From Aestuariivirga litoralis (lineage in GTDB: Bacteria > Pseudomonadota > Alphaproteobacteria > Rhizobiales > Aestuariivirgaceae): DNA of 64,000 bases. Position 1 is the first letter of the stretch, and each line of letters starts with the position of its first letter. A model generated the notes under the pieces. It saw only the letters and a program-made list of their open reading frames with translations. It ran no database searches and was not told the origin of the DNA. The stretch lies in assembly GCF_015714715.1 (NCBI RefSeq), contig NZ_WAHS01000001.1, forward strand, positions 1,860,001 to 1,924,000, written 5' to 3'. The position numbers were made by a program, and so were the translations under genes. This document shows, piece by piece, positions 42,716-62,460 of this stretch.

Positions 42716-42763
42716 GTGCGTGACCGGGCGCAAAACCGGCGTCCACTTTTGCTGGTCACGCAC
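42716..42763. repeat. Long interrupted inverted repeat after znuA
   Basis: GTGCGTGACC (42716-42725) pairs perfectly with GGTCACGCAC (42754-42763), and inside it GCAAAA (42730-42735) pairs with TTTTGC (42747-42752). The repeat touches the znuA stop codon. There is no T run after it on the minus strand, so it is not a classic terminator; it could be an mRNA-stabilising hairpin or an interspersed palindromic element. Confidence 0.7.
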
Positions 42764-43647
42764 TAGGCCGGCCCGCTCATGGCGGCCACCAGCAGCTTCA
42801 CATTATGGCGGAAGAATTCGAGGTAGCTGCCGCCGCCCTCGTCCTGCGACAGGGCATCGGCGAAAAGCTTGCCGCCGGGGTTGACGCCAGTTTCGCGGCC
42901 GATCTGTTCGATCAGGCGTGGGTCTGACATGTTCTCGAAAAATAATGCCGTGGCGTGCTGCGCCTTGATCTGGGTGATCAGCTTGGCCACGTCACCCGCT
43001 GCGGCTTCGCTCTCGGTGGAGAAGCCTTCCGGCGCTTCGAATTTCACCCCGTAAGCGGCACCGAAATAGCCGAAGGCATCATGGGTGGTGATGACGAGGC
43101 GCTTTTGCACTTCCACCTTGGCGATGGCGGCTTTGACTTCGGTATCCAGTGCCGTGATTTCGGCCGAATAGGCATCGGCATTCTGCTTGAAGGTGCCGCA
43201 ATCGGTGGGGTCTGCCGCGCACAAGCCGAGCTCGATGTTGCGCACATAGATCAGTCCGTTGGCGAGATTCTGCCAGGCATGCGGGTCGGTGATTTCCTTT
43301 CCGTCATCTTCCATCTGGCGCGAGGCCACGCCGGCGCTGACAGTGACCACCTGGCCCTTGAAGCCGGAGGAATCCACAAAGCGGGTCATCCAGCCTTCAA
43401 AGCCCAGACCATTGACGAACAGCACTTGCGATTTGGAGATCAGCTGCACATCGGCGGGCTTCGGCTCGTAAACATGCGTATCGGCGTCGGGGCCGACAAT
43501 GGTTGACACATCGACGAGATCACCGCCGACGCGCTTCACCATGTCACCCAGAATCGAGAAGCTGGCGGTGACGTGGAGCTTGGCATCGGCAATGGCGGGG
43601 GCCGCCAAGGCTGCGAGAGACAGGCCGATGAGAATGAGCTTTTTCAT
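42763..43647 (-). CDS. znuA: Zinc ABC transporter substrate-binding protein
   Basis: This 294-residue periplasmic cluster A-I binding protein has a signal peptide (MKKLILIGLSLAALAAPAIA). The expected metal ligands are visible: H58 (DTHVYEP), H123 (DPHAWQ), H189 (THDAFGYFG) and D264 (LFADALS). Three His plus one acidic residue with the DPHAW motif fit Zn or Mn; zinc is preferred because the operon carries a Zur box and zur itself. The long His-rich loop of enterobacterial ZnuA is absent. It is the last gene of zur-smORF-znuC-znuB-znuA. Confidence 0.9.
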   Translation of the reverse strand: MKKLILIGLSLAALAAPAIADAKLHVTASFSILGDMVKRVGGDLVDVSTIVGPDADTHVYEPKPADVQLISKSQVLFVNGLGFEGWMTRFVDSSGFKGQVVTVSAGVASRQMEDDGKEITDPHAWQNLANGLIYVRNIELGLCAADPTDCGTFKQNADAYSAEITALDTEVKAAIAKVEVQKRLVITTHDAFGYFGAAYGVKFEAPEGFSTESEAAAGDVAKLITQIKAQHATALFFENMSDPRLIEQIGRETGVNPGGKLFADALSQDEGGGSYLEFFRHNVKLLVAAMSGPA

Positions 43648-43650
43648 GAT

Positions 43651-44523
43651 CTAGGCTCTCTTGTGATGATGCGGCTTGGCCTGCCCTGCCAGCACGCCCT
43701 TGGGCGCAAAGAGCAGCGAGGCGATGTAGATCAGCCCGGCAACGAGGATGACCGAAGGGCCGGTGGCCAGATTGAAATGATAGGAGGCGAGCAAGCCGAC
43801 ATAGCTCGACACGACGCCGATGGTGGCGGCGAGCAGGCACATGGGTTCCAGCCGGTGCACCCAGAAGCGGGCGGAGACGGCGGGCACGATGATCAGGCCC
43901 ACGGCGAGAAGCGTACCCAGCGCCTGAAAGCCGGCAACGAGGTTGAGTGCGACGAGTCCGAGGAACGCGAAATGCGCGTAGCCACCGGATTTGCTCACTG
44001 AGCGCAAGAAAGAAGGATCGAGGCATTCAAGGAACAGCGCGCGCCAGATCACCGCCAGCACCAGCATGGTGACGGTGGCGACAGCACCGATCAGTGCCAT
44101 GGCCTGATCATTCAGCGCCAGCACGCTGCCGAAGAGAATGTGGACAAGATCCACGCTGGTGCCCTTCACCGAGATGAGCAGCACGCCGAAGGCCAGTGAC
44201 ATTAAGTAGAAAGCCGCGAGGCTGGCATCTTCACGCAAGAGCGTGAGGCGCGAGACGGCGCCGGCGAGGAAGGCCACGATCAGGCCCGCGATGAGACCGC
44301 CGAACGTCATCGGCAGGATTTGCAATCCGAACAGCAGGAAGCACACGGCCATGCCGGGCAGGATGGCATGCGACATGCCATCGGCGGCGAGGCTCATCCG
44401 GCGCAGAACGAGGAACACGCCCACCGGGCCTGCGCTGAGCGAGAGCACCACGCTGCCTGCCAATGCGCGGCGCATGAAATCGAAATCCACAAACGGCGCG
44501 ATCAAAAGATCGTAGAGGATCAT
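43651..44523 (-). CDS. znuB: Zinc ABC transporter permease
   Basis: This 290-residue membrane permease of the ABC-3 family has about eight hydrophobic helices. The sequence GVFLVLRRMSLAADGMSHAILPGMAV and the later VHILFGSVLALN are family hallmarks. ATG 44523 overlaps the znuC stop (ATGA at 44520-44523); a GTG at 44532 is a less likely alternative. It forms the transmembrane channel for zinc taken from the binding protein. Confidence 0.92.
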   Translation of the reverse strand: MILYDLLIAPFVDFDFMRRALAGSVVLSLSAGPVGVFLVLRRMSLAADGMSHAILPGMAVCFLLFGLQILPMTFGGLIAGLIVAFLAGAVSRLTLLREDASLAAFYLMSLAFGVLLISVKGTSVDLVHILFGSVLALNDQAMALIGAVATVTMLVLAVIWRALFLECLDPSFLRSVSKSGGYAHFAFLGLVALNLVAGFQALGTLLAVGLIIVPAVSARFWVHRLEPMCLLAATIGVVSSYVGLLASYHFNLATGPSVILVAGLIYIASLLFAPKGVLAGQAKPHHHKRA

Positions 44524-45251
44524 GCGGCGCACTCTTCGGCATTGTCATCCCAGGCTTCGGTCATGGTGCGGGCCTGGAGAAGATTCGCGGGAGCGATCAC
44601 ACTTCTTGTATCACCCCAAGCCACCGGTTCACGCGCCATCAGCAAGGTTTCAGGGAAATGCGCCTTGATCAGTTCGAAATCATGCAGCACAGCCAGCACG
44701 GTGCGCTTTTCGTTGTGCCACCGCGCGATGAGCTTCAGGAGATCAGCAGTTGTTTTGCCGTCAATGGCAGTGAAGGGTTCATCGAGCAGAATGAGCTTCG
44801 CGTCCTGTAGCAATACGCGGGCGAAGAGCGCGCGTTGGAATTGGCCGCCGGAAAGCGTTCCGATGTCGCGGCGTTCGAAACCGCGCAGGCCGACATGTTC
44901 CAGCGCGTGATGTACATCGTGGCGGTCAGCGTTAGTGAGTGCTGCGAAATTGCCACGGCGGTGCCAGAGGCCGGATTGTACGAGATCACCCACTGTTGCA
45001 GGGAAGCTGCGGTCAATGTCATGGGCCTGGGGCAGATAGGCAATGTCGCGCGCCGCGCAGCCGCTGCGGGTGATGTGGCCGCCGAGCGGGGAGAGAATGC
45101 CGGCGAGGCCCTTCATTAAGGTGGATTTGCCGGAGCCATTGGGGCCGGCAATCGCCGTCAGCGAACCTGAGGCGAAGGTGCCCTTCAAATGGTGGACGGC
45201 GGGGTGGCCGTCATAACCGAGCGTGACATCGTCGAGCGTGATGGAGGCCAT
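44520..45251 (-). CDS. znuC: Zinc ABC transporter ATP-binding protein
   Basis: This 243-residue ATPase has Walker A GPNGSGKST (residues 36-44), signature LSGGQFQRALFARVLL, Walker B LILLDEPF and the switch His in VLHDFE. It powers zinc import with ZnuB. A strong ribosome binding site (GGAGG) overlaps the end of the small ORF just upstream. The length is normal. Confidence 0.93.
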   Translation of the reverse strand: MASITLDDVTLGYDGHPAVHHLKGTFASGSLTAIAGPNGSGKSTLMKGLAGILSPLGGHITRSGCAARDIAYLPQAHDIDRSFPATVGDLVQSGLWHRRGNFAALTNADRHDVHHALEHVGLRGFERRDIGTLSGGQFQRALFARVLLQDAKLILLDEPFTAIDGKTTADLLKLIARWHNEKRTVLAVLHDFELIKAHFPETLLMAREPVAWGDTRSVIAPANLLQARTMTEAWDDNAEECAA

Positions 45252-45252
45252 G

Positions 45253-45357
45253 TTACCTCCAGGCCAGAAAGAGAATGGCCCAGATCAGGGCCACGGCGAT
45301 GGCGGCGGTGCCGAGGCGCGCACCGATACTCAATTGCCAGAAATTGATTTGCCGCAT
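45253..45357 (-). CDS. 34-residue single-span membrane protein in zur-znu operon
   Basis: Reading the minus strand from ATG 45357 to TAA 45255-45253 gives a 34-residue peptide starting MRQINFWQLSIGARLG. It is followed by a hydrophobic stretch TAAIAVALIWAILFLAW and ends in R. The start follows the zur stop by two bases (TGATCATG), and the stop lies one base before the znuC ATG with its GGAGG inside the peptide's last codons. Such tight placing and one clear membrane segment suggest a real microprotein, perhaps an accessory subunit of the transporter. A leader-peptide role cannot be excluded. Confidence 0.6.
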   Translation of the reverse strand: MRQINFWQLSIGARLGTAAIAVALIWAILFLAWR

Positions 45358-45359
45358 GA

Positions 45360-45761
45360 TCAAGCGCCCTTCTGCAGGCACTTCTGGCATTTGCCAGAAA
45401 TCTCGACATTGGTGGCTTCAATGACAAAGCCAGGCGGGCGGTGGCGCGCGGCGCGTTCAAGGCTGCCCGCATCAAATTCCGAAACCGTGCCGCAGCCGGT
45501 GCAAACCAGAAAGCCAGGTGGTGTTCCATCATGCGCGCAACGGCAGGGCACGAAGGCGTTGAGCGAAGCCACCTTGTGCACTTCGCCCTGTTTCATCAGG
45601 CGCTCCAGCGCACGGTAGACCTGCACGGGCGCCTTGAATTTTGCAGCCGGGCCGTGCGCCTGAAGTTGGTGCATCAGGTCATAGGCCGAGAGTGGCTTCT
45701 TTGATGAGGTGAGAACCTTGCTCACTTCCAGATCGCTCTTGCGGGTATTGTCTGCGTTCAT
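45360..45761 (-). CDS. zur: Zinc uptake regulator, Fur family
   Basis: This 133-residue Fur-family repressor has a winged helix with APVQVYRALERLMKQG and a metal-binding C-terminal part. Two Cys pairs (C87/C90 in CTGC and C125/C128 in CQKC) make the structural zinc site, and CRCAHD lies in the regulatory region. With Zn2+ bound it represses zinc uptake. A Zur box lies 13 bp before ATG 45761, so it is self-regulated along with smORF-znuCBA. It is the first gene of that operon. Confidence 0.92.
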   Translation of the reverse strand: MNADNTRKSDLEVSKVLTSSKKPLSAYDLMHQLQAHGPAAKFKAPVQVYRALERLMKQGEVHKVASLNAFVPCRCAHDGTPPGFLVCTGCGTVSEFDAGSLERAARHRPPGFVIEATNVEISGKCQKCLQKGA

Positions 45762-45774
45762 GATCGGCACTCAT

Positions 45775-45896: not shown

Positions 45897-46853
45897 ATGG
45901 TTACAAGCACCGGCAAAAAGGCGTTGGTCACAGGGGCGGCGGGATTTCTCGGCTCGCATCTGGTGGACAAGCTGCTGGGCGATGGCTGGCAGGTGACCGG
46001 GCTGGACAATCTGCAGACCGGCGCGATGCAGAACCTGGCTCACCTTTCCGGCAATGCCAAGTTCAACTTCATCAAGCATGATGTGACTGAACCTGCCGAG
46101 ATTGAAACCGATATGATTTTCAACCTGGCTTGCCCCGCTTCGCCTCCGGCCTATCAGGCTGATCCGATCCGCACGCTGAAGACTTCCGTTCTCGGTGCAA
46201 TGCATTTTCTCGAACTGGCCGCGCGACAGAAGGCAATTTTCGTGCAGGCTTCGACCAGCGAAGTTTATGGCGACCCCTTGGTGCATCCGCAGCGCGAAGA
46301 TTATTGGGGCCATGTGAACCCGATCGGCATCCGCTCTTGCTATGATGAAGGCAAGCGCGCGGCGGAGACGCTGTGCTTTGACTATCGCCGCAAGGAAAAT
46401 GTCGATGTGAAGGTGGCGCGCATCTTCAATACCTATGGCCCGCGCATGGACCCCAATGACGGGCGGGTGGTGTCCAATTTCATCGTGCAGGCGCTGAAAG
46501 GTGAACCGATCACCGTTTATGGCGATGGGCTGCAGACGCGCTCGTTCTGTTTTGTGGATGACCTGATTGGCGCCATCCATGGCTTGAGCAAGTTGCCGCC
46601 GGGTGAAGCGGGCCCAGTGAATATCGGCAATCCGGGCGAGTTCACCATGCTGGAACTGGCCGAGCAGGTGCTGGCGCTTACTGGCTCAAAATCCAGGCTC
46701 ATCTACAACCCGCTGCCGCAGGATGACCCGAAGCAGCGCAAACCCGATATCAGCCGCGCGCAGGCACTGATGGGCTGGGAGCCGAAGGTTGGGCTGCATG
46801 AAGGTCTGCAGAAGACGATTGCCTATTTCAGCCAGCGGCTGAAGGCGGCCTGA
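45897..46853 (+). CDS. uxs: UDP-glucuronate decarboxylase (UDP-xylose synthase)
   Basis: This 318-residue extended SDR has NAD-binding GAAGFLGSH (residues 13-21) and the catalytic Y149-x3-K153 in [13 protein letters not shown]. The fingerprint of UDP-xylose synthase is present: [45 protein letters not shown] and [20 protein letters not shown]. It makes UDP-xylose from UDP-glucuronate. The next gene on the opposite strand is UDP-glucose dehydrogenase, its substrate supplier, with a three-base gap between the stops. The promoter is in the 135 bp after the zur region. Confidence 0.93.
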
Positions 46854-46856
46854 AAC

Positions 46857-48257
46857 TCAAGCGCTGTGGATCTTGAGCTTGCTCTTGGCGAGCTTGGCCT
46901 TCACTTCTGATTCCAGCGAGGGGAACGGCAGCACATCCGGCCTTTCCTGCTCATCTTCATCGTGGCCACGACCGACGCTGTAGAGGCTCACACCGGCTGC
47001 GGCAAAACTTTCCACTGAGAACGTGTGACGGAAATCAAACACCAGCGGCTGGCGCATCGTGGATTTGAAATCGCTGGGGCCGAGTGTCCTGAATTCCGGC
47101 CATTCCGTCAGGATTAAAGCGGCATCAGCGCCATGCAGCGCAGATTGCACATCCTTGGAAAATTCAGTCTCTGTCAGCAAGGGCCTGGCCTGTTCGAAGG
47201 CCTTGGGGTCGAACGCCGCAATCTTGGCACCACGCGCTTCAAGGGCCGGAATGATCGAGAGGGCCGGGGCTTCGCGCATGTCATCAGTGCCGGCCTTGAA
47301 GGCCAGGCCGAGGATTGCAATGCGCTTGCCCACAAGGCTGCCGCCCAAGGCTTCTGCGACCTTGGTGGCCACATTGGCTTTTCGCGCTTCGTTGGAGGCG
47401 ATGGTGGCTTCCACCAATTGCATCGGGCTTCCGGCTTTCGACGCGGATGCCGCCAGCGCCGCCGTATCCTTGGGGAAACAAGAACCGCCATAGCCAGGGC
47501 CTGCCTGCAGGAAGCGGTTGCCGATGCGCGGATCAAGACCCATGCCTTGCGCCACTTCGGCCACATCACCATTCACGGCTTCGCACAGATCGGCCATTTC
47601 GTTGATGAAGGCTACTTTCATGGCGAGGAAGGCGTTGGCGGCGTATTTGATCAGCTCGCTGTTGCGGCGGCGGGTGAAGAGCAGAGGAATATCGCCCATC
47701 GGGGCATAGATCGCCGTCATCACGCTTCTGGCACGGTCGTTTTCGAGGCCGATGACCACCCGGTCGGGCTGCATGAAATCCTGAATGGCGGCACCTTCGC
47801 GCAGGAATTCCGGATTGGATATCACGGCAAATTCAACGCCGGGATTTTCGCGCGCGACAAGCGCCTCCAGTGCATCACCCGTGCCCACTGGCACAGTTGA
47901 TTTGGTGATGATGGTGAGGAAGCCCTTGGCATTGCGCGCCACTTCGGCGGCGGCGGCATTGAGATAAGTGAGGTTGGCGCTGCCATCTTCGCTTTGCGGC
48001 GTGCCGACGGCGAGGAACACAGCGCTGGCACCCTGCATCGCTTCGGCCACATTGGTGGTGAAGTGGATGCGGCCGGCATTGATGTTGGTTTCGAGAAGTT
48101 CTTCCAGGCCCGGTTCATAAATCGGGGACACTGATTTCTTAAGGGCTTCGATGCGCGCTGCATTGGTGTCAACACAAGTGATGTGATGGCCCAGCTCCGC
48201 TAGGCAGGTGCCTGTGACGAGGCCCACATATCCACAGCCAATAACAGTAATGCGCAA
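46857..48257 (-). CDS. ugd: UDP-glucose 6-dehydrogenase
   Basis: This 466-residue enzyme oxidises UDP-glucose to UDP-glucuronate with two NAD+. Motifs: GCGYVGLVTGTCLAELGH (NAD fold), TKSTVPVGTGD, NPEFLREGAAIQDF, and the catalytic C260 in GPGYGGSCFPKDT. An acidic linker (SVGRGHDEDEQERPD) and a basic tail extend the C-terminus. It is the third gene of the operon repeat protein-GT41-ugd, two bases after the glycosyltransferase stop. Together with the convergent uxs it gives UDP-glucuronate and UDP-xylose. Confidence 0.95.
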   Translation of the reverse strand: MRITVIGCGYVGLVTGTCLAELGHHITCVDTNAARIEALKKSVSPIYEPGLEELLETNINAGRIHFTTNVAEAMQGASAVFLAVGTPQSEDGSANLTYLNAAAAEVARNAKGFLTIITKSTVPVGTGDALEALVARENPGVEFAVISNPEFLREGAAIQDFMQPDRVVIGLENDRARSVMTAIYAPMGDIPLLFTRRRNSELIKYAANAFLAMKVAFINEMADLCEAVNGDVAEVAQGMGLDPRIGNRFLQAGPGYGGSCFPKDTAALAASASKAGSPMQLVEATIASNEARKANVATKVAEALGGSLVGKRIAILGLAFKAGTDDMREAPALSIIPALEARGAKIAAFDPKAFEQARPLLTETEFSKDVQSALHGADAALILTEWPEFRTLGPSDFKSTMRQPLVFDFRHTFSVESFAAAGVSLYSVGRGHDEDEQERPDVLPFPSLESEVKAKLAKSKLKIHSA

Positions 48258-48259
48258 AG

Positions 48260-50293
48260 TTAAGCTACCCGGCGTTGCTCCAGCGGGGCAGCGGGGGCAG
48301 AATCACCTTTTGCTGCACTTGCGAGAGGATTTGAATCAGGCGTGGTTTCGCCCGTCCAAAGCCGCGAGTCAAGCTGCAGGGGGTAGAAGTCATTCCAGGC
48401 TGCCAGGGCCGCCTGATAGGAGGGTGCGTCAACCGGGCCGGACTGGGCCTGATGTGCGAGTGCAATATCCTCATAGATATCAAGATTGCGCAGATCAGGC
48501 TGGGGAAGATTGCCGGAGGCAAAGTCTTCCCACATCTGGTCGTAGAGGCTTTCGAGGCTGCTGACCAAGAGATTGGTGTCAAACAGCACACACAAGTCAC
48601 GGCTGGCGCGCAGGCGCACTTTGAAGTCCTGCACCTCGCTGGGGTTCAGGCCCAGACGTGTAGCGGTGGCTATATAGGTTGCGAGATCCGGTACGATCAA
48701 TTCCGGCGTGCCGGCGGCGCGCACCAGGCTGGCGCAGACGCGGCTGGCGAAGCTCTGGCCCGGCATGGTGAGCACTGGGGTTCCGACCCACATGGCATCC
48801 GACGAAGTGGTGTGGGCGCCATAGGGGAATGTATCGAGGAACAGATCAGCCAGTTGATAGCGGGCCAGATGCAGCGGGTTGGGGCGCTTGGGCGCAAAGC
48901 ACAAGCGGTTCTCATCAACGCCGAGCTTGGTGGCGATCGCTTTCAGGCGGGCATGGGTTTCAGCGACTGAATCCAGCAGCCACAACACGCTGCCCGGCAC
49001 ATTGCGCAGGATTTCCATCCAGGCGGTGAACAGCGGCTCGGTAATCTTTTGCGTGCCGTTGAGGCAGCAGAACACGAAGCCCTGCTCCGGCAGGTTCTCG
49101 TCCGCGCGCTTGGGCATCTCGGCGGAAATCTTGCGCTTGCGGTCATTGGGTTGATAGACCGGAATGCGCAAAACCTTTTCGGTGAAATAGGCTTCGCTTT
49201 CACGCGGGATCGTCACTTCATCGGCGATCAGATAGTGATGATAGGGAGTGGCCATGCTGCCAGGGAAGCCGTACCAGTTCACTTGGACGGGTGCGGGGCG
49301 GCGTGCGAAGACGGCGGTGCGAGCATCGCGGGTATAGCCGTTGAGATCAATCAGGATGTCGATCTTGGCAGCGTGAATGAGCGCTGCCGCATCATCATCG
49401 CTCATGCCGGTGATGTTGGTCCAGCTGTCAACGCTGTTCTTGATGCGCTGCTTGGTGGCATCATCATGGGCAATGCCACAATAGAAGGCGTGGATTTCAT
49501 AACGCTCGCGGTCATGCAGTTCGAGTGCTTCCGACATGCCGAAGCCCACGGCGTGCTCACGCAGGTCTGACGAAACATAGCCGATGCGCAGCTTTTCAGC
49601 GCGTGGCTGCATGCGATCTTCAAATTTGCCGAAGGATTGCGGCGGGCGCTTCACCAGGGTCTTGGCGTAGGAATAGGCGCGGCCCAATTGCATCACCGCG
49701 TCGTCATACATCACAGACGTAGAGAGTGGCGAAATGTGCTTCAGCAGATCACGCGTGGTAACACCTTCCCAGGCTTCCATCACCGGCCACTTGCATTGCT
49801 TCTGGCGCAGCGCGATCCAGTGCTGCACGACTTCCGGCTGGTCGGGCTTGATGTCGATTGACTGGCGCAGCACGTCTTCAGCCGGTACGTCGAGGTGATT
49901 GCCTTCCAGCACGCGGCCGGCCTGTTGCTGGGCCATCAGCTTGTGGCGGATGTTTTCGCCGGTCACTTCAGGAAGCTTCTTGCTCAGTTCGAGCCATTGC
50001 GAAATGGCCGAGCCGGCCTGGCCGCAATCTTCAAGCAGGCGGCCCAGATTGATATAGGGCGGCAGGAAATCAGGCTTCAGGCGGATGCAATCGCGCATCA
50101 CATTGATGGCGCCAGCGGAGTCGCCATGGCGGGCCATCACTACAGCGTAGTTAAACATGGCGGCATGCAGATGCGGATTATCCGCATTGAAGGCCACCCA
50201 GTTCTTGTAGAGATTGACGGCGCCTGCTCCGTCTCCCCCCTTCTCCAATGACTCAGCTGCTTTGAACAGTTCGACGATAGAAATCTGAGTCAT
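48260..50293 (-). CDS. TPR-containing OGT-like glycosyltransferase (GT41)
   Basis: This 677-residue protein has TPR-like helical repeats in residues 1-160 (AMFNYAVVMARHGDSAGAI, and INLGRLLEDCGQAGSAI), then a GT41 catalytic domain of the OGT/SPINDLY type. Catalytic-domain marks are IGYVSSDLREHAVGF, DLNGYTRDARTAVFARRPAP, the segment FVFCCLNGTQKITEPLF, and FLDTFPYGAHTTSSDAMWVG with QSFASRV. Known GT41 enzymes transfer GlcNAc, fucose or other sugars from nucleotide donors to Ser/Thr in cytoplasmic proteins, and alphaproteobacterial relatives (FlmG) modify flagellins. It lies 18 bp after the Ser/Thr-rich repeat protein gene and two bases before ugd, so the repeat protein is the likely substrate. 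Donor specificity is unknown. Confidence 0.88.
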   Translation of the reverse strand: MTQISIVELFKAAESLEKGGDGAGAVNLYKNWVAFNADNPHLHAAMFNYAVVMARHGDSAGAINVMRDCIRLKPDFLPPYINLGRLLEDCGQAGSAISQWLELSKKLPEVTGENIRHKLMAQQQAGRVLEGNHLDVPAEDVLRQSIDIKPDQPEVVQHWIALRQKQCKWPVMEAWEGVTTRDLLKHISPLSTSVMYDDAVMQLGRAYSYAKTLVKRPPQSFGKFEDRMQPRAEKLRIGYVSSDLREHAVGFGMSEALELHDRERYEIHAFYCGIAHDDATKQRIKNSVDSWTNITGMSDDDAAALIHAAKIDILIDLNGYTRDARTAVFARRPAPVQVNWYGFPGSMATPYHHYLIADEVTIPRESEAYFTEKVLRIPVYQPNDRKRKISAEMPKRADENLPEQGFVFCCLNGTQKITEPLFTAWMEILRNVPGSVLWLLDSVAETHARLKAIATKLGVDENRLCFAPKRPNPLHLARYQLADLFLDTFPYGAHTTSSDAMWVGTPVLTMPGQSFASRVCASLVRAAGTPELIVPDLATYIATATRLGLNPSEVQDFKVRLRASRDLCVLFDTNLLVSSLESLYDQMWEDFASGNLPQPDLRNLDIYEDIALAHQAQSGPVDAPSYQAALAAWNDFYPLQLDSRLWTGETTPDSNPLASAAKGDSAPAAPLEQRRVA

Positions 50294-50311
50294 GGGGCCT
50301 TGCTTGTTTTA

Positions 50312-53300
50312 TCAGGGATTGCTGACGGTGATGAGGGCGGCGATCTGATCGGTGGTCATTGCGCCTACCTGAGTCGAGGTGAACGCACCAGCCTGATCGG
50401 TGGAGAGCGCTGCGATCTGTGCGGTGGTCATCGCCGTAATGGCGGTGGTACTCAGATTGGGCAGGCCGGTCGTGGCGCTCAGAGCCGCAAACTTGGTGGT
50501 GCTCAAGTTGAGGATCTGGACAGCGGTCAGAGCCGAGGCCTGGGCCGTAGTCAGAGCGCCAAATTCGTCGGTGGAGAGCGCGTTCAGGGCCGTGGTCGAG
50601 AGTGCCGTCACCTGGCTTGCAGCGAAGGCGCCGAACTGCGTGGAGGTGAGCGCTCCCGCCGCCGTGGCGGTGAGGCCGGCAACCTGTGCGGTCGAAAGCT
50701 TGGTCGCGTCCAGCGCGTTCAACTGGGTGGTGCCCAGCGTGTTGACCTGGGTGGTGGTCAGCCCCTGGACCTGGACCGTGCTCAAGGCGCCCAGCTGGGT
50801 ATCGGAGAAGTGCGAGAAGGCCGTGGTGGTGAGGGCCGACAGCTGTTTGGTGCTGAGGGCGCCCAACTGTGCCGTGCTCCAGGCCTGCAGGGCGTCCGAG
50901 GCGATGCCGCCGATCGCGGTGGAGGACAGTGCCGCCACCTGTGCGGTGTTGAAGCCCGAAGCCTGTACGGTGGTCAGAGCGCCCACACCGGTTGCGTCCA
51001 GCCCGCCCACTTGGGTGGTCGACAGATTGGTGATGGTGATGGCGTTCAGCTGGGTGGTGCCCAGGCCGTTAAGCTGCGTGGCGGTGAGTCCGCCAAGCTG
51101 CGAGGTGGTGAGAGCGGCAAACTGCGTATCCGAGAAGTCGCCCAGATCCGTGGTCGAGAGGCCGCCGATTTGAGTGGTGGTGAGGGCGGCAAGTTGCGCC
51201 GTGCCCCAGCCCTGGATTTCGTCCGAGCTCAAAGCGCCCACGCCCGCTGCCGTCAGCACGCCGATTTCGGCGGTGGTCAGCGATTGGGCCTGGGTGGTCG
51301 AGAGGGCTTCCAGTGCAACAGTGGTCATGCCCTTGATCTGGGCAGTGGACAGCTTGGTCACATCCAGCGCGTTGAGCTGAGCAGTGGCAAGTCCATTGAG
51401 CTGGGTTGCGGTCAGACCCTGCGTCTGCGCCGTGGTCAAGGCACCCAGCTGGGTATCCGAGAATTTGGCGATGTCGGCGGTGGTGAGTGTTGAAAGCTGC
51501 TTCGTGGTGATGGCGCCCATCTGCGCCGTGCTCCAGGCCTGGAGTTCGTCCGAGGTCAGGGCTTCGAGTGCGCCGGTGGAGAGCAGGCCGATCTGACCGG
51601 TGGTCAGAGCGTTGGCTTGCGTCGTCGAGATGGTGCCGAAGACGGCGGTGGTCATGCCGGTGAGCTGCAGCGTGGACAACTTGGTGATGTCCAGCGCGTT
51701 GAGCTGGGTAGTCGCCAGGCCATTGACCTGCGTGGTGGTCAGGCTCTGGGTCTGCGCCGTGGTCAGGCCGCCCAATTGCGTATCGGAGAAGTGAGCGATG
51801 GCAGAGGTGGTGAGCGCGGAGAGCTGCTTGGTGCTGATCGCACCGAGCTGTGCCGTGCTCCAGGCCTGCACATTGTCCGACGCGATGGCGCCGAGTGCGG
51901 TGGCGCTCAGGGCCGCGATATTGGTGGTCGAGAGACCGGTGGCCTGGGTGGTCGAGAGGTTGCCGATGCCGGTGGCGTTCAGCGCGCCGACCTGCAGGGT
52001 GGAAAGGTTGGTCAGATTGAGTGCCGCCATCTGCGTGCTGCCGATGCCGTTCAGCTGGGCTGCCGTGAGGCCGCGCAGCTGGGTGGAGCTCAAGGCGCCA
52101 AGCTGGGTGTCAGAGAAGTTGGCAAGTGCTGCGGTCGAAAGGCCGGAAAGCTGCTTTGATGACAGGGCAGCCATCTGTGCTGTGCCCCAGCCCTGGAGTT
52201 CATCCGAGTTGAGGGCCTGCAGGTCATCGGTGCTGAGGCTGCTGATCTGCGTGGTGGTCAGCGACTGGCTCTGGGTGGTGGAGAGTGCTCCGAAGGCGGT
52301 GGCCGTCATGCCCTTGATTTGAACCGTAGAGAGCTTGGTGGCGTCGAGCGCGTTGAGCTGGGTGGTGCCCAAGCCGTTCAATTGCGCGGTAGTCAGACCC
52401 TGCACCTGTGCGGTGGTCAAGGCGCCCAATTGCGTATCTGAGAAGTTGGCAATCGCGACGGTGGTGAGTGCCGAGAGCTGCTTGGTGGTGATGGCACCCA
52501 TCTGTGCCGTGCTCCAGGCCTGCACATTGTCAGACGAGAGCGCGCCGAGCGCCGTGGTGGTCAATACTGCGATGTTGGTGGTGGAGAGGCCGGTGGCCTG
52601 GGTGGTGGACAATGCACCGATGCCGGTGGCGTTCAGGCCACTGATTTGTAGGGTGGAAAGGTTGGTGAGGTTCAGGGCGCCCATCTGGGTGGAGCCGAGG
52701 CTGTTGAGCTGACCGGCGGTGAGGCCCTTCAGCTGAGTGGCGCTGAGGCCGCCCAACTGCGTGTCAGAGAAATCCGCAATGTCGGTGGCGTTGAGGCCAG
52801 CGATCTGGCTGGAGGTGAGGGCCGCGAGCTGGGCGGTGCCCCAGCCCTGCAACTCATCCGAGCTCAGGGCGGCAATGTCTGCTGCCGACATCACGCCGAT
52901 CGAAGCGGCGGTGAGCGATTGGGCCTGGGTGGTCGAGAGTGCTTCAACGGCGGTCGCCGTCATGCCCTTGACCTGGACGGTCGAAAGCTTGGTGACATCC
53001 AGCGCGTTAAGCTGAGCCGTGGCCAGTGTGTTGAGCTGGGTGGTGGTGAGCGACTGCGTCTGTGCCGTGGTCAAGGCGCCAAGCTGCGTGTCGGAGAAGT
53101 TGGCGAGCGCGGAGGTGCTCAAGGCAGAAAGCTGCTTGGTGGTGATCGCACCCAACTGCGCCGTGCTCCAGGCCTGCACATTGTCGGACGAAAGAGCGCC
53201 AAGTTCGGTGCTGGTCAGAACGGCGACTTGGCCGGTGGTCAAGGCGCCAACCTGGGTGGACGAAAGCGTGCCGAAGACGGTGGCGGTCATGCCGGTGATT

Positions 53301-55135
53301 TGGGTGTTGGAAATCTTGGTCACGTCGAGCGCGTTGAGCTGGGCGGTGCCCAAGCTGTTCAACTGTGCCGTGGTGAGGCCCTGGGTCTGCGCCGTGGTGA
53401 GCGCGCCGAGCTGCGTATCCGAGAAATGGCTGATCGCCGTGGTGGTCAAGGTTGAGAGCTGCTTGGTCGATATGGCGCCAAGCTGAGCAGTGCTCCAGGC
53501 CTGCACATTGTCGCTGGAAAGAGCGCCCAGAGCGGCCGTGCTGAGGACGGCGATATTGGTGGTGGACAGCCCGGTGGCCTGGGTGGTGGAGAGAGCGGCG
53601 ATGCCGGTTTCGTTCAGCGCACCGATCTGCAGCGTAGACAAGCTGGACAGATTGAGGGCGGCCATCTGCGTGGAGCCGAGGCTGTTGAGCTGGCCAGCCG
53701 TGAGGCCGCGCAGCTGCGTCGAGCTCAGGCCACCCAGCTGGGTGTCTGAGAATTTGGCAATGTCAGTCGCGTTGAGGCCGGAGAGCTGCTTCGACGACAG
53801 AGCGCCAAGCTGGGCTGTACCCCAGCCCTGCAACTCGTCGGAATTCAAGGCCTTCAGGTCATCGGTGGTCAGAACCGCGATCTGGGCGGTGGTAAGGGAC
53901 TGGCTCTGGGTGGTCGAAAGAGCGCCGAAGGCTACCGTGGTCATGCCCTTGATCTGGGTGACCGACAGCTTGGTTGCATCGAGCGCGTTAAGCTGGGCCG
54001 TATCCAGCGTGTTGAGCTGGGTGGTGGTGAGGCCCTGAACCTGCGCAGTGGTCAGCCCATTCAATTGGGTGTCGGAGAAATGCGCGAGCGCCGTGGTCGA
54101 CAAGCCGGACAATTGCTTTGTGGTGATGGCGCCGAGCTGAGCGGTGCTCCAGGTCTGGAGATTGTCGGAAGCAATGGCACCCAAAGCGGCATTGCTTAGC
54201 GAAGCGATCTGCGTGGTGGTGAAAGCAGCGGATTGCGTGGCGGAGAGAGCGGCAACGCCGGTTTCGTTCAGACCACTGATTTGCAATGTGGACAGATTGG
54301 TCACGTCGATGGCGTTGAGCTGCGTGGTGCCCAGGCCGTTCAACTGGCCAGCGGTCAAACCGCGCAGCTGGGTTGAAGAAAGCCCGCCGAATTGCGTGTC
54401 AGAGAAATTGCCGAGGGCTGCCGTCGAAAGGCCCGACAGCTGCTTGGAGGTCAACGCCGCCAATTGGGCGGTGCCCCAGCCCTGCACTTCTTCCGAGCTC
54501 AAGGCTGCGAGATCCTGGGTGGTCAACGCACCGATCTGGGTGGCGGTGAGGGATTGCGCCTGGGTGGTGGAAAGGTTGCCGACGGCAGTTGCAGTCATGC
54601 CCTTGATCTGGGTGACCGACAGCTTGGTCGTATCGAGCGCGTTGAGCTGGGCCGTATCGAGCGTATTGAGCTGGGTGGTGGTCAGGCTCTGGGCCTGGGT
54701 GGTGGTGAGGCCGTTGAGCTGGGTATCAGAAAAGTGCGCCAGTGCCGCGGTAGAAAGCGTGGAGAGCTGCTTGGTGGTGATGGCGGCGAGCTGCGTTGCA
54801 TCCCAGCTTTGCACATCGGTTGCGCTGAGCGAGGCCATTGCGGCGGCCTGAATGTTCGAAATCTGTGATGCAGTGAAGCTTGGCGTCTGCGTATCGGTGA
54901 GGGCGATCAGTGTATCTCCGATGAGGCCGCTCATCGCTACCGTGGATATGCCCTTGATCTGGTCGGTGCCCATCGCCTGGAGATCAGTTGTCTCCATCGC
55001 GTTGATCTGGGTTGCCGAAAGTGCCCCCACCTGCGTGGTGGAGAGTGACTGCACATCAGATGAGGAGAGCTGCTTGATGGCCGTGGTGGTAAGGGCCGCA
55101 ATCTGACGGGTGGTCAGGCTTGATACGATCGACAT
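50312..55135 (-). CDS. Giant Ser/Thr-rich nested-repeat protein
   Basis: This 1607-residue protein is built almost entirely from an 8-residue motif of the form L-[ST]-[ST]-x-Q-[LIV]-x-x (for example LTTAQIAV, LSSKQLSG). Thirteen octads plus five residues give a 109-residue unit with one Trp each. In the unit after the tenth Trp, 35 of 109 residues are Ser or Thr. No Cys was seen, and only three Pro, all outside the array. There is no signal peptide, LPXTG, RTX motif or membrane segment. The ending DQIAALITVSNP gives no known secretion signal. ATG 55135 has GGAG ten bases before it; the ORF could start 54 bases earlier. The S/T-x-x-Q pattern is like helix N-caps, so a helical solenoid is possible. 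The gene lies in an operon with the GT41 gene. The family is not recognised. Confidence 0.9.
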   Translation of the reverse strand: MSIVSSLTTRQIAALTTTAIKQLSSSDVQSLSTTQVGALSATQINAMETTDLQAMGTDQIKGISTVAMSGLIGDTLIALTDTQTPSFTASQISNIQAAAMASLSATDVQSWDATQLAAITTKQLSTLSTAALAHFSDTQLNGLTTTQAQSLTTTQLNTLDTAQLNALDTTKLSVTQIKGMTATAVGNLSTTQAQSLTATQIGALTTQDLAALSSEEVQGWGTAQLAALTSKQLSGLSTAALGNFSDTQFGGLSSTQLRGLTAGQLNGLGTTQLNAIDVTNLSTLQISGLNETGVAALSATQSAAFTTTQIASLSNAALGAIASDNLQTWSTAQLGAITTKQLSGLSTTALAHFSDTQLNGLTTAQVQGLTTTQLNTLDTAQLNALDATKLSVTQIKGMTTVAFGALSTTQSQSLTTAQIAVLTTDDLKALNSDELQGWGTAQLGALSSKQLSGLNATDIAKFSDTQLGGLSSTQLRGLTAGQLNSLGSTQMAALNLSSLSTLQIGALNETGIAALSTTQATGLSTTNIAVLSTAALGALSSDNVQAWSTAQLGAISTKQLSTLTTTAISHFSDTQLGALTTAQTQGLTTAQLNSLGTAQLNALDVTKISNTQITGMTATVFGTLSSTQVGALTTGQVAVLTSTELGALSSDNVQAWSTAQLGAITTKQLSALSTSALANFSDTQLGALTTAQTQSLTTTQLNTLATAQLNALDVTKLSTVQVKGMTATAVEALSTTQAQSLTAASIGVMSAADIAALSSDELQGWGTAQLAALTSSQIAGLNATDIADFSDTQLGGLSATQLKGLTAGQLNSLGSTQMGALNLTNLSTLQISGLNATGIGALSTTQATGLSTTNIAVLTTTALGALSSDNVQAWSTAQMGAITTKQLSALTTVAIANFSDTQLGALTTAQVQGLTTAQLNGLGTTQLNALDATKLSTVQIKGMTATAFGALSTTQSQSLTTTQISSLSTDDLQALNSDELQGWGTAQMAALSSKQLSGLSTAALANFSDTQLGALSSTQLRGLTAAQLNGIGSTQMAALNLTNLSTLQVGALNATGIGNLSTTQATGLSTTNIAALSATALGAIASDNVQAWSTAQLGAISTKQLSALTTSAIAHFSDTQLGGLTTAQTQSLTTTQVNGLATTQLNALDITKLSTLQLTGMTTAVFGTISTTQANALTTGQIGLLSTGALEALTSDELQAWSTAQMGAITTKQLSTLTTADIAKFSDTQLGALTTAQTQGLTATQLNGLATAQLNALDVTKLSTAQIKGMTTVALEALSTTQAQSLTTAEIGVLTAAGVGALSSDEIQGWGTAQLAALTTTQIGGLSTTDLGDFSDTQFAALTTSQLGGLTATQLNGLGTTQLNAITITNLSTTQVGGLDATGVGALTTVQASGFNTAQVAALSSTAIGGIASDALQAWSTAQLGALSTKQLSALTTTAFSHFSDTQLGALSTVQVQGLTTTQVNTLGTTQLNALDATKLSTAQVAGLTATAAGALTSTQFGAFAASQVTALSTTALNALSTDEFGALTTAQASALTAVQILNLSTTKFAALSATTGLPNLSTTAITAMTTAQIAALSTDQAGAFTSTQVGAMTTDQIAALITVSNP
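50555..54805 (-). repeat. Thirteen 327-bp tandem units within the giant gene
   Basis: Taking the single Trp of each unit as a landmark, its codon occurs on the plus strand as CCA at 54803, 54476, 54149, 53822, 53495, 53168, 52841, 52514, 52187, 51860, 51533, 51206 and 50879. Every step is exactly 327 bp, so no indel has accumulated. The Trp contexts alternate between type A (AWSTAQ-like) and type B (GWGTAQ) in the order ABABA-ABABA-ABA. This reveals a higher-order unit of five (1635 bp, 545 residues). Confidence 0.9.
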
Positions 55136-55448: not shown

Positions 55449-58259
55449 ATGACGGCCGAACCCAAGATCAATCTTTCGCCCAAAGGCTGGGACGAAATCA
55501 AAACTACCACTTGCTATATGTGCGCCTGCCGCTGCGGCATCCGGGTGCATCTGAAAGACGGCAAGGTTACTTACATCGACGGTAACGCCGACCATCCGGT
55601 GAACAAAGGCATTATCTGCGGCAAGGGTGCCGCTGGCATCAAGCAGCATTATTCGCCGGCGCGTTTGTCCAAACCCTTGCTACGGGTGGGTGAGCGTGGT
55701 TCGGGCGAATTCCGCGAGATTGAATGGGACGATGCGCTGACCATGGCCACGCAATGGCTGTCTGACGTGCGCAATTCCGATCCGAAGAAACTGGCCTTCT
55801 TCACCGGCCGCGATCAGAGCCAGGGATTGACGGGCTGGTGGGCCTCGCAATTCGGCACGCCGAATTATGCCGCACATGGCGGCTTCTGCTCGGTGAACAT
55901 GGCGGCGGCGGGGCTTTACACCTATGGCGGCGCGTTCTGGGAATTCGGCGAACCCGATTGGAAGCACACCAAATATTTCCTGCTGTTCGGCGTGGCGGAG
56001 GATCACGGCTCCAACCCGATCAAGGCGGGCCTGGGCAAGCTGAAGGCGCGAGGCGCCAAGATCGTTTCGATCAATCCGGTGAAGACGGGTTACTCCGCCA
56101 TTGCTGATGAATGGATCGGAATCACGCCCGGCACCGATGGGTTGTTTGTGGGGGCATTGATCCACTGCCTGCTGGCGGCACAGAAGATCGATGCGGAATA
56201 TCTGTCGCGCTACACCAATGCTTCGTGGCTGGTGATCGAGAACCCGGGCGGGGCGGATGATGGCCTCATCCTGCGCAATCCTGCGGGCACGCCGTTGGTG
56301 TGGGACAAGCAGGGCAGCGGCACCAAGGCTGGGCCATTCGGCGCAACGCCTGCATTGTTGGGCCGCTTCAACCTGCCCGATGGCCGCAAGGTGGTGACCA
56401 GCTTCACGCTGATCGCCGAGCGCTTTGCTGGCGATGAGTATTCGCCAGAGCGCGTCGCCGAAAAATGCGGCGTGCCGCCGGAGACGACGCGGCGCATTGC
56501 GGCCGAGTTGGCGCATACGGCGTTCAATGAAACCATCGAGCTTGATATTCCATGGACGGATTATCTGGGCCGGCGCCATGAAAAGACTTTGGGCCGCCCG
56601 GTTTCGATGCATGCAATGCGCGGGATCAGTGCGCATTCCAATGGCTTTCACACCTGCCGCAGCATTCACGTGCTGCAGATCATGCTAGGCACCATCGATG
56701 TGCCGGGCGGCTCGCGCTACAAGCCGCCCTTCCCCAAATCCATTCCGCCGCATGTGAAGCCCGCCGGAAAGCCGGGGCAAGTGCAGCCCGGCAAGCCCCT
56801 ACCCGGCCCGCCGCTGGGTTTTGTCTCAGGGCCGGAAGATTTGCTGGTGGATTCAGTTGGCACGCCGCAGCGCATCGACAAGGCTTATTCCTGGGATGCG
56901 CCGCTTGCTGCGCATGGCTTGATGCACATGGTCATCAACAATGCCAGCAAGGGCGACCCTTACACTATCGACGTGCTGTTCATGTATATGGCGAATATGA
57001 GCTGGAATTCGGCGATGAATGTGCCGGATACGCTCAAGGCCCTGACCGCGAAGAAGCCTGACGGCTCTTACGTGATCCCCAAGATTATCTATTCCGATGC
57101 TTATGCTTCGGAGACGGTGCAGTATGCAGATCTCGTTTTGCCCGATACCACTTACCTTGAACGCTGGGACTGCATCTCGATGCTGGACCGGCCGATATCG
57201 GAAGCTGATGGCCCGGCGGATTCGATCCGTCAGCCGGTGGTGGAGCCTGACCGCGATGTGCGGCCGTTCCAGACTGTGCTGCTCGATCTCGGCCACCGCC
57301 TCGGCCTGCCCGCCATGACCAATGCTGAAGGTGGGCCGCGTTATCCGGGCGGCTATCCTGATTACATTGTGAATCATGAACGTGCGCCGGGACTTGGGCC
57401 TCTGGCGGGTTTCCGCGGCAAGGATGGCAAGGCCGCAGGGCGCGGGGCAGTGAACCCCAATCAGCTGCAGGCCTATATCGACAATGGCAGTCACTGGTAT
57501 CAGGAACTCAGTGACAACATGAAATACTATAGGCATGTGAACTGGGATTATCTGGACTGGGCCACGTTCTTTGGCTTCCTGCCGCGCCCCGAACCGATCA
57601 TCCACCAGGTCTATTCCGAGACGCTGCAGAAATTCCGCCTCGCGGCGCAGGGCCATGGCAAGGTGGTGGTGCCGGAGCAGCACCGGAAGCGCATCGCAAC
57701 TTATTTCGATCCGATCCCGTTCTGGTATGCGCCGTTTGAAGGCGAGATGGTGAGTGATGAAGACTTCCCCATCCATGCGATCACCCAGCGGCCGATGGCG
57801 ATGTATCACTCCTGGGGTTCACAGAATTCCTGGCTGCGGCAGATTCTCGGGCGCAACTGGCTTTACATGCACAAGGCGAAGGCGGAGAAACTCGGCATCG
57901 CCGATGGTGACTGGGTGGATGTGACCTCGCATCACGGCACGATCAAAGCCCAAGTGAAATTCTCCGATGGGCAGAATGAGCATACTGTGTGGACGTGGAA
58001 TGCTATCGGCAAGCGCAAGGGTGCCTGGGCGCTGACACCGGATTCACCTGAGGGGGAGAAGGGTTTTCTGCTGAACCATCTGATCAGTGATCTTTTGCCG
58101 GAACGCGAGGGCGGTTACCGCTATTCCAATTCCGATCCAGTGACTGGGCAAGCGGCGTGGTATGATTTGAAAGTGCGGATCAGCAAGAGTGCGGACCAGA
58201 AGCCAGAAAGCGCACCGCAATTTCCGGTGCTGAAGTCAACGAAAAGGAAGCGCGCATGA
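55449..58259 (+). CDS. soeA: Molybdopterin oxidoreductase, SoeA-like sulfite dehydrogenase subunit
   Basis: This 936-residue catalytic subunit belongs to the DMSO reductase family. The N-terminus has the 4Fe-4S motif with C22, C25, C29 and C57 (CYMCACRC, GIICGKG) and no Tat signal, so it works in the cytoplasm. C147 in HGGFCSVNM is the probable Mo ligand. The later segments (YADLVLPDTTYLERWD, ITQRPMAMYHSWGSQN, LGIADGDWVDVTSHHG) are typical. Size, missing Tat signal and linkage to a ferredoxin-type and a DmsC-like gene match SoeABC, which oxidises sulfite to sulfate on the cytoplasmic side. It could instead act on another sulfur or nitrogen compound; sulfite is most likely. Confidence 0.82.
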   Translation: MTAEPKINLSPKGWDEIKTTTCYMCACRCGIRVHLKDGKVTYIDGNADHPVNKGIICGKGAAGIKQHYSPARLSKPLLRVGERGSGEFREIEWDDALTMATQWLSDVRNSDPKKLAFFTGRDQSQGLTGWWASQFGTPNYAAHGGFCSVNMAAAGLYTYGGAFWEFGEPDWKHTKYFLLFGVAEDHGSNPIKAGLGKLKARGAKIVSINPVKTGYSAIADEWIGITPGTDGLFVGALIHCLLAAQKIDAEYLSRYTNASWLVIENPGGADDGLILRNPAGTPLVWDKQGSGTKAGPFGATPALLGRFNLPDGRKVVTSFTLIAERFAGDEYSPERVAEKCGVPPETTRRIAAELAHTAFNETIELDIPWTDYLGRRHEKTLGRPVSMHAMRGISAHSNGFHTCRSIHVLQIMLGTIDVPGGSRYKPPFPKSIPPHVKPAGKPGQVQPGKPLPGPPLGFVSGPEDLLVDSVGTPQRIDKAYSWDAPLAAHGLMHMVINNASKGDPYTIDVLFMYMANMSWNSAMNVPDTLKALTAKKPDGSYVIPKIIYSDAYASETVQYADLVLPDTTYLERWDCISMLDRPISEADGPADSIRQPVVEPDRDVRPFQTVLLDLGHRLGLPAMTNAEGGPRYPGGYPDYIVNHERAPGLGPLAGFRGKDGKAAGRGAVNPNQLQAYIDNGSHWYQELSDNMKYYRHVNWDYLDWATFFGFLPRPEPIIHQVYSETLQKFRLAAQGHGKVVVPEQHRKRIATYFDPIPFWYAPFEGEMVSDEDFPIHAITQRPMAMYHSWGSQNSWLRQILGRNWLYMHKAKAEKLGIADGDWVDVTSHHGTIKAQVKFSDGQNEHTVWTWNAIGKRKGAWALTPDSPEGEKGFLLNHLISDLLPEREGGYRYSNSDPVTGQAAWYDLKVRISKSADQKPESAPQFPVLKSTKRKRA

Positions 58260-59053
58260 CGATGCTTCCGGCAACGACGACCAAAAAGCTCGGACTGGTC
58301 ATTGATCTTGATACCTGCGTGGGGTGCCAGGCTTGCGCCACATCCTGCAAGGAATGGAACGCGCAAGGCGACAGCGGGCCGCTGACGGATACTGATCCGC
58401 AAGGAGCGGATGTATCGGGCCCATGGTTCAACCGCATTCATGGTTATGAAGTGTTGGAAGAAGGCCGCAGCGATTCACGCATCGTGAATTTTCCGCGCTC
58501 ATGTCTGCATTGCGAGGAGCCGGCTTGCGTGACCGTGTGCCCCACGGGTGCGTCCTACAAGCGCGCCGAAGACGGCATCGTGCTGGTGAACCCTGAAACA
58601 TGCATCGGCTGCAAGCTGTGTTCCTGGGCCTGCCCTTATGGTGCGCGCGAATATGATTACATGCAGGGCGTGATGAAGAAATGCACCTTGTGTGTGGACC
58701 GCATCTATAATGACAATCTGGTCGAGGAAGACCGTGTGCCAGCCTGCGTGCGTGCGTGCCCCACGGGGGCGCGACACTTTGGTGATTTGGCCGATGAAAG
58801 TTCTGAAGTTTCCATTCTGGTGAAGGAGCGTGGCGGTTTCGATCTGTTGCCGGAGATGGGCTACAAACCCACCAACAAATATCTGCCACCACGCGCGCGC
58901 CGGGAGAATTATGCGGCAGGTGTGGAAGCACTGCCCAAGGGGGACGGATCGGTGATGGAAATGTTGTTCGCCTGGGCGGACAAGCTGCTTACGCCTTCGG
59001 CGGTGACTGCAGCGGCGAACCCGGACGATCATTCGGACAAGTTGGAAGGCTGA
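58256..59053 (+). CDS. soeB: 4Fe-4S ferredoxin subunit SoeB-like
   Basis: This 265-residue electron-transfer subunit has four cysteine clusters typical of DmsB/PsrB-like proteins: CVGCQACATSC, CLHCEEPACVTVCPTG, CIGCKLCSWACPYG, and CTLC with CVRACPTG. They would hold four [4Fe-4S] centres linking the Mo subunit to the membrane anchor. ATGA overlap with soeA and TGATG overlap with the next gene show an operon. ATG 58262 is an alternative start two codons later. Confidence 0.88.
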   Translation: MTMLPATTTKKLGLVIDLDTCVGCQACATSCKEWNAQGDSGPLTDTDPQGADVSGPWFNRIHGYEVLEEGRSDSRIVNFPRSCLHCEEPACVTVCPTGASYKRAEDGIVLVNPETCIGCKLCSWACPYGAREYDYMQGVMKKCTLCVDRIYNDNLVEEDRVPACVRACPTGARHFGDLADESSEVSILVKERGGFDLLPEMGYKPTNKYLPPRARRENYAAGVEALPKGDGSVMEMLFAWADKLLTPSAVTAAANPDDHSDKLEG

Positions 59054-61502: not shown

Positions 61503-61508
61503 TCCGGA

Positions 61509-62456: not shown

Positions 62457-62460
62457 ACCC

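Follow-up and report, generated by a model that had tools for sequence, protein, structure and literature searches.

In the serine-rich repeat (SRR) adhesins of Gram-positive bacteria, the cytoplasmic enzymes GtfA and GtfB glycosylate the adhesin. In Caulobacter crescentus, flagellins are O-glycosylated in the cytoplasm from a pseudaminic acid donor by FlmG, a soluble enzyme with N-terminal tetratricopeptide repeats (TPRs) and a GT-B domain, the TPR part giving substrate choice (PMC7591256). HMW1C of Haemophilus, a GT41 glycosyltransferase, acts in the cytoplasm on HMW1, a large surface protein encoded with the enzyme (PMC3012730). Here, we analyzed a 64,000-nucleotide stretch of the Aestuariivirga litoralis genome (contig NZ_WAHS01000001.1, positions 1,860,001 to 1,924,000; hereafter the window), in which a gene for a long Ser/Thr-rich repeat protein of the ALTTAQ family lies next to a gene for a GT41 glycosyltransferase (Table 1). 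The first-pass annotation of this DNA proposed a dedicated O-glycosylation system made of the repeat protein, the GT41 enzyme and a UDP-glucose dehydrogenase. The repeat protein/GT41 pair is strongly supported as a dedicated unit by gene co-occurrence and by the Ser/Thr pattern of the repeats; the dehydrogenase does not hold as a conserved member.

The family memberships of the pair are clear. The repeat protein matches Pfam PF20080 (ALTTAQ) with an E-value of 2.3e-211 (683.6 bits against a cut-off of 26.4, 51 stretches). The transferase matches PF13844 (E 7.6e-76, 255.9 bits against a cut-off of 25), which places it in GT41, and its best solved relatives are O-linked N-acetylglucosamine (O-GlcNAc) transferases (E 6.2e-80). 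Its annotation as an OGT-type enzyme with TPRs was confirmed, with the qualification that the N-terminal TPR region is short (TPR_14, 26.2 bits against a cut-off of 23.5, with no single stretch passing). The enzyme was aligned to human OGT, and H247, K416, H494, T496 and D499 are invariant in 9/9 aligned enzymes; we take this His, Lys, His-x-Thr and Asp to be the GT41 active-site residues. An identity as HMW1C-type N-glucosyltransferase was rejected (NF049992, 21 bits against a cut-off of 1000). As annotated, the genes for the repeat protein, the enzyme and the dehydrogenase are consecutive on the minus strand, with gaps of 18 bases between the first two and 2 bases between the last two.

The genetic association of ALTTAQ with this GT41 type is very strong. 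Among 61 related genomes, 12 carry a near-full-length relative of the enzyme (at least 48% identity, at least 629 bits; the next best match scores 344 bits). An ALTTAQ frame adjoins the enzyme in 12/12, and a search of the same genomes for the ALTTAQ family returns exactly those 12 and 0/49 others (Fisher p = 5.7e-13, a value that overstates the case, the genomes being non-independent). The pair is patchy within the genus group (11/37 genomes). Across 387 genomes sampled from the class, the five with this GT41 type (at least 628 bits) all carry ALTTAQ, against 2/382 others (G092 and G181; p = 3.0e-10, overstated for the same reason). At least 500 GT41 relatives were found, of which the best 80 loci in named genomes were examined; together with 5 of the 49 plasmid records matching over 80% of the enzyme, and with the window, they make up 86 loci (G-numbers denote genomes and L-numbers fetched loci). 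ALTTAQ lies inside the fetched DNA at 75 of the best 80 loci (directly upstream on the same strand at 51, upstream and divergent at 17, downstream at 6 and further off at 1), elsewhere in the genome in the remaining five (L080, L088, L094, L100, L104), hence in 80/80 named genomes, and at 5/5 of the plasmid loci looked at. Of nine control loci with distant GT41 genes (14–20 kb each), none has it, the controls including three very distant GT41-like genes (L132–L134, 22–26% identity) and four loci from G001 and G046, genomes that hold the linked pair elsewhere.

The converse holds less strictly. We considered 17 further ALTTAQ genomes: G092, G181 and 15 of the 17 found in a phylum sample of 397, from which the window's own genome and G588 were excluded. 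Of the 17 considered, 15 have GT41 matches at E 1e-15, and G181 and G737 have none. This GT41 type was not found without ALTTAQ among the genomes sampled; a consistent lack of linkage between the two genes in other genomes, which would have spoken against the annotation, was sought for this type and not found. The pair was not seen described in the open-licence literature, which leaves out most subscription journals. Giant ALTTAQ frames occur several to a genome in the multi-copy family f199 (L202–L209, L217, L218), the longest open frame reaching 6,436 aa, and GT41 matches are numerous there, with as many as 40 matched stretches in a single genome.

In a quick tree of 47 GT41 proteins (Shimodaira–Hasegawa-like approximate likelihood ratio support only), the main linked type falls on one branch of mixed taxa (33 rows, support 100). 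Two Verrucomicrobiota enzymes sit inside an alphaproteobacterial branch (support 99), and a Roseomonas enzyme groups with a Methylobacterium enzyme (support 94, not starred). This mixing of taxa suggests joint movement of the pair from lineage to lineage. Where ALTTAQ loci belong to other families, the GT41 genes beside them fall elsewhere in the tree (L201, and L203 with L219, the latter two grouping with an unlinked control at support 96), and thus the partnership may have more than one origin. Three loci (L043:11917-13746, L044 and L088) have, directly after the first GT41 gene, another one that belongs to a separate branch (PF13844 shown for L043).

What does the proposed substrate look like? 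Counted from the ATG, the repeat protein contains 169 Ser and 305 Thr (474 Ser/Thr), no Cys, 35 Lys+Arg and 74 Asp+Glu. The ALTTAQ unit is an octad (hydrophobic, Ser/Thr, x, x, mostly Gln, hydrophobic, x, Ala/Gly), and in the window protein the octads are arranged in 109-residue super-repeats. A model of residues 1–300 (window 54236–55135), built on 12 sequences, is an alpha-solenoid with one short helix per octad (mean pLDDT 92, pTM 0.80); by this model, the whole protein would form a long rod. The model contains 38 helices of at least 3 residues, 26 of them preceded by Ser/Thr, and the helix begins at octad position 3 in 24 of the 28 recognised octads. Because helices begin at position 3 and are preceded by Ser/Thr, position 2 is the helix cap.

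A solved protein, HeliScrew4 (PDB 9zem), also matches the repeat protein (E 4.4e-8, or 8.9e-11 with the whole protein as query). Judged from the sequence and name of the entry, it has the same octad, with Leu, Ser/Thr and a hydrophobic residue in register; in the alignment, however, it carries mostly Pro and Asp/Glu where GT41-linked proteins carry Ser/Thr at positions 3 and 4. No papers on ALTTAQ or HeliScrew were found in the open-licence literature. The best solved Foldseek match of the model is mesothelin (E 1.4e-4, template-modelling (TM) score about 0.3), too weak to claim kinship. This match, those to designed armadillo and crystal proteins, and those to viral models (TM normalised by query length no higher than 0.27 in the 50 listed) were put down to a general helical-repeat resemblance. 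One viral-model match, phage protein A0A6J7X2V1, is 32% identical over 116 columns, and perhaps the same octad occurs in phages. Other Pfam matches of the repeat protein (CAAP1, EndoS LRR, DUF4351 and others), in which no stretch passes alone, were taken as compositional. A short array of ~19 ALTTAQ octads lies inside a larger protein (L165:8068-11490) next to a 2,003-aa frame that on reading has RTX-like repeats; the genome in question lacks a GT41 match at E 1e-15.

We compared Ser/Thr content per octad position, as medians, between 82 GT41-linked and 6 unlinked ALTTAQ proteins. The linked set comprises 75 of 81 ALTTAQ loci (75 named, 5 plasmid and the window; the other 6 have no protein with at least 20 chained octads) and 7 later loci, with L215 and L216 counted as linked, their GT41 gene lying just past the fetched end. 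Six loci (L135–L137, L167, L169, L171) were left out as the same kind of genome already counted or as re-fetched, and L212 was not used as an unlinked protein, its 15 octads (position 3 at 0.07) not forming a clear array. Nine f199 proteins (L202, L204–L209, L217, L218), with no GT41 gene in the fetched stretch but GT41 matches in their genomes, were counted on neither side; their position-3 Ser/Thr is 0.51–0.75.

Position 2 is equally rich in both sets (0.86 linked, 0.87 unlinked), and positions 7 and 8 do not differ (p = 0.48 and 0.27). In contrast, position 3 carries 0.80 Ser/Thr in linked and 0.28 in unlinked proteins (p = 2.6e-4), and the larger of positions 3 and 4 stands at 0.84 against 0.34 (p = 9e-5), with a lowest linked value of 0.50. 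Many linked loci are near-copies; the test with 44 less redundant linked proteins gives a one-sided p of 4e-6. Two ALTTAQ proteins from genomes without a GT41 match (E 1e-15) rank below all 82 linked ones. The extra Ser/Thr at positions 3 and 4, the first residues of the helix, make these likely candidate acceptor sites. The hundreds of regularly spaced Ser/Thr that the annotation had offered as sites do exist and are octad-spaced, but not all are candidates: the idea that every Ser/Thr is an acceptor was rejected, since position 2 has the same Ser/Thr content whether or not a GT41 gene is linked, and lies before the helices.

The Ser/Thr-rich position also differs between lineages, as seen in sets of picked loci (9 + 4 + 10 + 8 + 7). 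In Rhizobiaceae-type proteins (9 loci), position 3 stands at 0.80–0.95 and position 4 is mostly spared (0.13–0.43); the Caulobacter/Acetobacteraceae group (4 loci) shows the reverse, with 0.33–0.45 at position 3 and 0.70–0.92 at position 4; and in the Roseomonas/Methylobacterium group (8 loci) both positions are loaded. The window protein has 0.68 at position 3 and 0.45 at position 4. Acceptors adapted to different enzymes would be expected to look like this, as would joint inheritance, which gives the same correlation. Several points weigh against reading the pattern as the mark of the enzyme: position 4 is not significant alone (0.59 linked, 0.34 unlinked, p = 0.38); the unlinked set is only 6 proteins; the unlinked paralogue L168, whose genome also holds the linked type, resembles linked proteins in its Ser/Thr (0.65 and 0.62 at positions 3 and 4); and linked genes inherited together would give correlated patterns without causation. 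On balance, we are fairly confident that the GT41 enzyme modifies the repeat protein.

Which sugar would be attached? The closest solved relatives of the decarboxylase encoded beside the dehydrogenase are the UDP-glucuronate decarboxylases 4gll, 2b69, 4m55 and 4lk3 (E 1.6e-115 to 2e-116; next best 1.8e-43), the best of which, 4gll and 2b69 (E 2e-116), are UDP-glucuronate decarboxylase 1. By family chemistry, the dehydrogenase and the decarboxylase would convert UDP-glucose to UDP-glucuronate and then to UDP-xylose. Contrary to the annotation, the dehydrogenase is not a conserved partner: it is linked to the pair in 1/86 loci, namely in the window. What recurs instead is the decarboxylase (at least 50% identity), a sugar gene unmentioned in the annotation, which occurs in 15/86 loci (the window, 2/5 plasmid and 12/80 named). 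It stands directly after GT41 (L046, L074), directly before GT41 (L043, L044, L080, L088), before ALTTAQ (L058, L059 and, on the other strand, L054 and L125) or downstream on the opposite strand (L051, L064–L066, window), with L051, L065, L066 and the window convergent.

Alternatively, the enzyme could use UDP-GlcNAc or UDP-glucose while the adjoining dehydrogenase and decarboxylase serve another, perhaps cell-wide, pathway, a reading to which we give nearly an even chance. The solved GT41 relatives are mostly O-GlcNAc transferases, and each sugar gene is a single match in the genome (decarboxylase at E 1e-70, dehydrogenase at E 1e-20), so that both may serve envelope sugars too. Most loci are devoid of these genes: there is no decarboxylase near 71/86 loci, nor in 2/12 ALTTAQ-positive relatives, and near 24/85 loci, nearly all rhizobial, a family represented by UDP-galactopyranose mutase is found in its stead. 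On the other hand, the decarboxylase recurs beside the pair in varied arrangements in unrelated taxa and is commoner in ALTTAQ-positive than in ALTTAQ-negative relatives (10/12 against 14/49, p = 8e-4). With the mutase in place of the decarboxylase, the donor may vary, and the sugar probably differs between lineages. For this organism we tentatively propose a donor derived from UDP-glucuronate, UDP-xylose first, at somewhat less than even odds. A ~427-aa protein with a Pfam match to PF12248 only often follows GT41 in rhizobial loci (L106:3106-4386 and 12 others; 13 loci); our guess is that it extends the sugar, beside the galactopyranose mutase.

The annotation had the protein sugar-coated before export or for internal use. 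Genes for an ATP-binding cassette (ABC) transporter with a C39-like domain and for HlyD adjoin the pair at L043, L044, L056, L063 and L064 (5/86 loci; ABC at least 50% identity), and they adjoin ALTTAQ in 3/20 further stretches (L215, L216, L219), with GT41 slightly further on in all three. Among 59 complete ALTTAQ frames of at least 900 aa, linked and unlinked, 46 are free of cysteine and in 58 acidic residues outnumber basic ones. Type I secretion substrates tend to be cysteine-free and acidic. Export is probable in the family at large; in this genome, the question is evenly poised. The C-terminal ends are alike within lineages, with no motif common to all. No ABC/HlyD genes were seen, on reading, among the frames of window positions 38000-64000, and weighing against export here, the best match of this genome to the L043 ABC protein has 34% identity, with the C39-like part outside the match. 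Nor does the linked ABC protein track ALTTAQ in the 61 relatives, its best matches being in G046 (44%, with ALTTAQ), G040 (41%) and G033 (37%), the latter two without.

The glycosylated protein could instead remain cytoplasmic, serving as a fibre within the cell or as a store of sugar. Such a fate would agree with the lack of an N-terminal signal peptide, of which none is visible on reading the sequence and the model, as annotated (no signal-peptide program was run), with the failure to find a close relative of the linked exporter in this genome, and with the small share of loci that carry the ABC genes. We consider it unlikely: the ABC/HlyD genes adjoin ALTTAQ in separate lineages, and the composition of the ALTTAQ frames resembles that of type I substrates. 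Finally, it is improbable that the Ser/Thr are wholly structural (caps and a polar helix face) and that GT41 acts on something else, flagellin or envelope proteins for instance, with the repeat protein as scaffold, carrier or partner: the constancy of position 2 does imply that much of the Ser/Thr richness is structural, and the known TPR-bearing FlmG modifies flagellins (PMC7591256), but positions 3 and 4 are Ser/Thr-rich only in linked proteins (L168 excepted), unlinked ones using Ala, Thr, Pro and others, and the enzyme type was not found without ALTTAQ in the genomes sampled.

The account that we judge likely as a whole is one in which the GT41 enzyme would attach sugar, in the cytoplasm, to many Ser/Thr of the adjoining rod. 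Position 2 would cap each helix in a structural role, and positions 3 and 4 would be the likely acceptors. The dehydrogenase and the decarboxylase would make the donor, most likely derived from UDP-glucuronate with UDP-xylose as first choice, and in lineages with an adjoining type I ABC/HlyD pair the glycoprotein would then be exported as a surface or matrix fibre. A bolder version, which we regard as doubtful, is a mobile glycoprotein-fibre system: each octad of a screw-like solenoid would present one or two Ser/Thr in its first helical turn, and on these GT41 would lay down a dense, regular, helical sugar coat, of xylose or another UDP-glucuronate-derived sugar here and perhaps galactofuranose-containing in rhizobia, with enzyme clades preferring position 3 or 4, type I export in some lineages and horizontal spread.

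Table 1. Features of the locus, in window coordinates.
Feature	Position	Strand	Evidence
ALTTAQ octad-repeat protein gene, proposed substrate	50312..55135	minus	PF20080 and solenoid model; 1,607 aa
Tandem array within the repeat-protein gene	51323..53593	minus	Tandem Repeats Finder: 327-bp (109-residue) period, 6.9 copies
GT41 glycosyltransferase gene, short TPR region, proposed enzyme	48260..50293	minus	PF13844; 677 aa
UDP-glucose 6-dehydrogenase family gene (UDP-glucose/GDP-mannose dehydrogenase family), proposed nucleotide-sugar supply	46857..48257	minus	PF03721/PF00984/PF03720; TIGR03026 above cut-off
UDP-glucuronate decarboxylase (UDP-xylose synthase) gene, probable contributor to sugar supply	45897..46853	plus	Solved-relative search, E 2e-116

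The repeat-protein start is the ATG at 55135, an alternative in-frame GTG 54 bases upstream being also open, and the dehydrogenase gene starts with TTG. The decarboxylase gene is convergent with the dehydrogenase gene, with 3 bases between their ends. Divergent to the repeat gene, at 55449-59988, lie a molybdopterin oxidoreductase gene (PF00384) and then, by reading, iron-sulphur-subunit-like and membrane-subunit-like genes. The stretch 60087-63264 begins with a gene for a circularly permuted ATP-grasp protein (PF14403); the next two genes on reading resemble its usual neighbours, the last being transglutaminase-like. On the other side, genes at 42763-45770 resemble a zinc-type ABC uptake system and a Fur-family regulator, again by reading. 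A Rhizobium plasmid has curlin and CsgH genes, as annotated, close to the pair (L041:14868-21220).

To our knowledge, many bacterial GT41 enzymes have no known substrate. Here, a whole GT41 branch can be tied by gene content to one proposed substrate family, with predicted acceptor positions, and the regular octads offer a simple scaffold for how TPR-bearing glycosyltransferases choose sites. The loci come from tractable bacteria, including Caulobacter segnis, Rhizobium, Methylobacterium and Aestuariivirga litoralis.

By analogy, the system would work like the dedicated cytoplasmic glycosylation of SRR adhesins, of flagellins by FlmG and of HMW1 by HMW1C. As with SRR adhesins, a long repeat protein rich in Ser/Thr would receive its sugars inside the cell, ahead of export, from a dedicated enzyme encoded at its own locus; however, the enzyme is a GT41 protein and not GtfA/GtfB, the repeat is modelled as a helical solenoid, and the accessory Sec export of the adhesins contrasts with type I ABC/HlyD genes where these are linked (no SecA2/SecY2 search was made). 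The likeness to FlmG lies in domain make-up and role, a TPR-bearing soluble enzyme that would modify an exported protein before export, whereas the substrate and sugar differ: flagellin and pseudaminic acid there, a solenoid repeat protein and a proposed UDP-glucuronate-derived donor here. With HMW1C the locus shares a GT41 enzyme encoded beside its large, in our case putative, protein substrate, but HMW1C modifies asparagine and is without TPRs, and HMW1 is exported by two-partner secretion (PMC3012730). If our reading is true, a helical-solenoid glycoprotein joins these known dedicated glycosylation systems.

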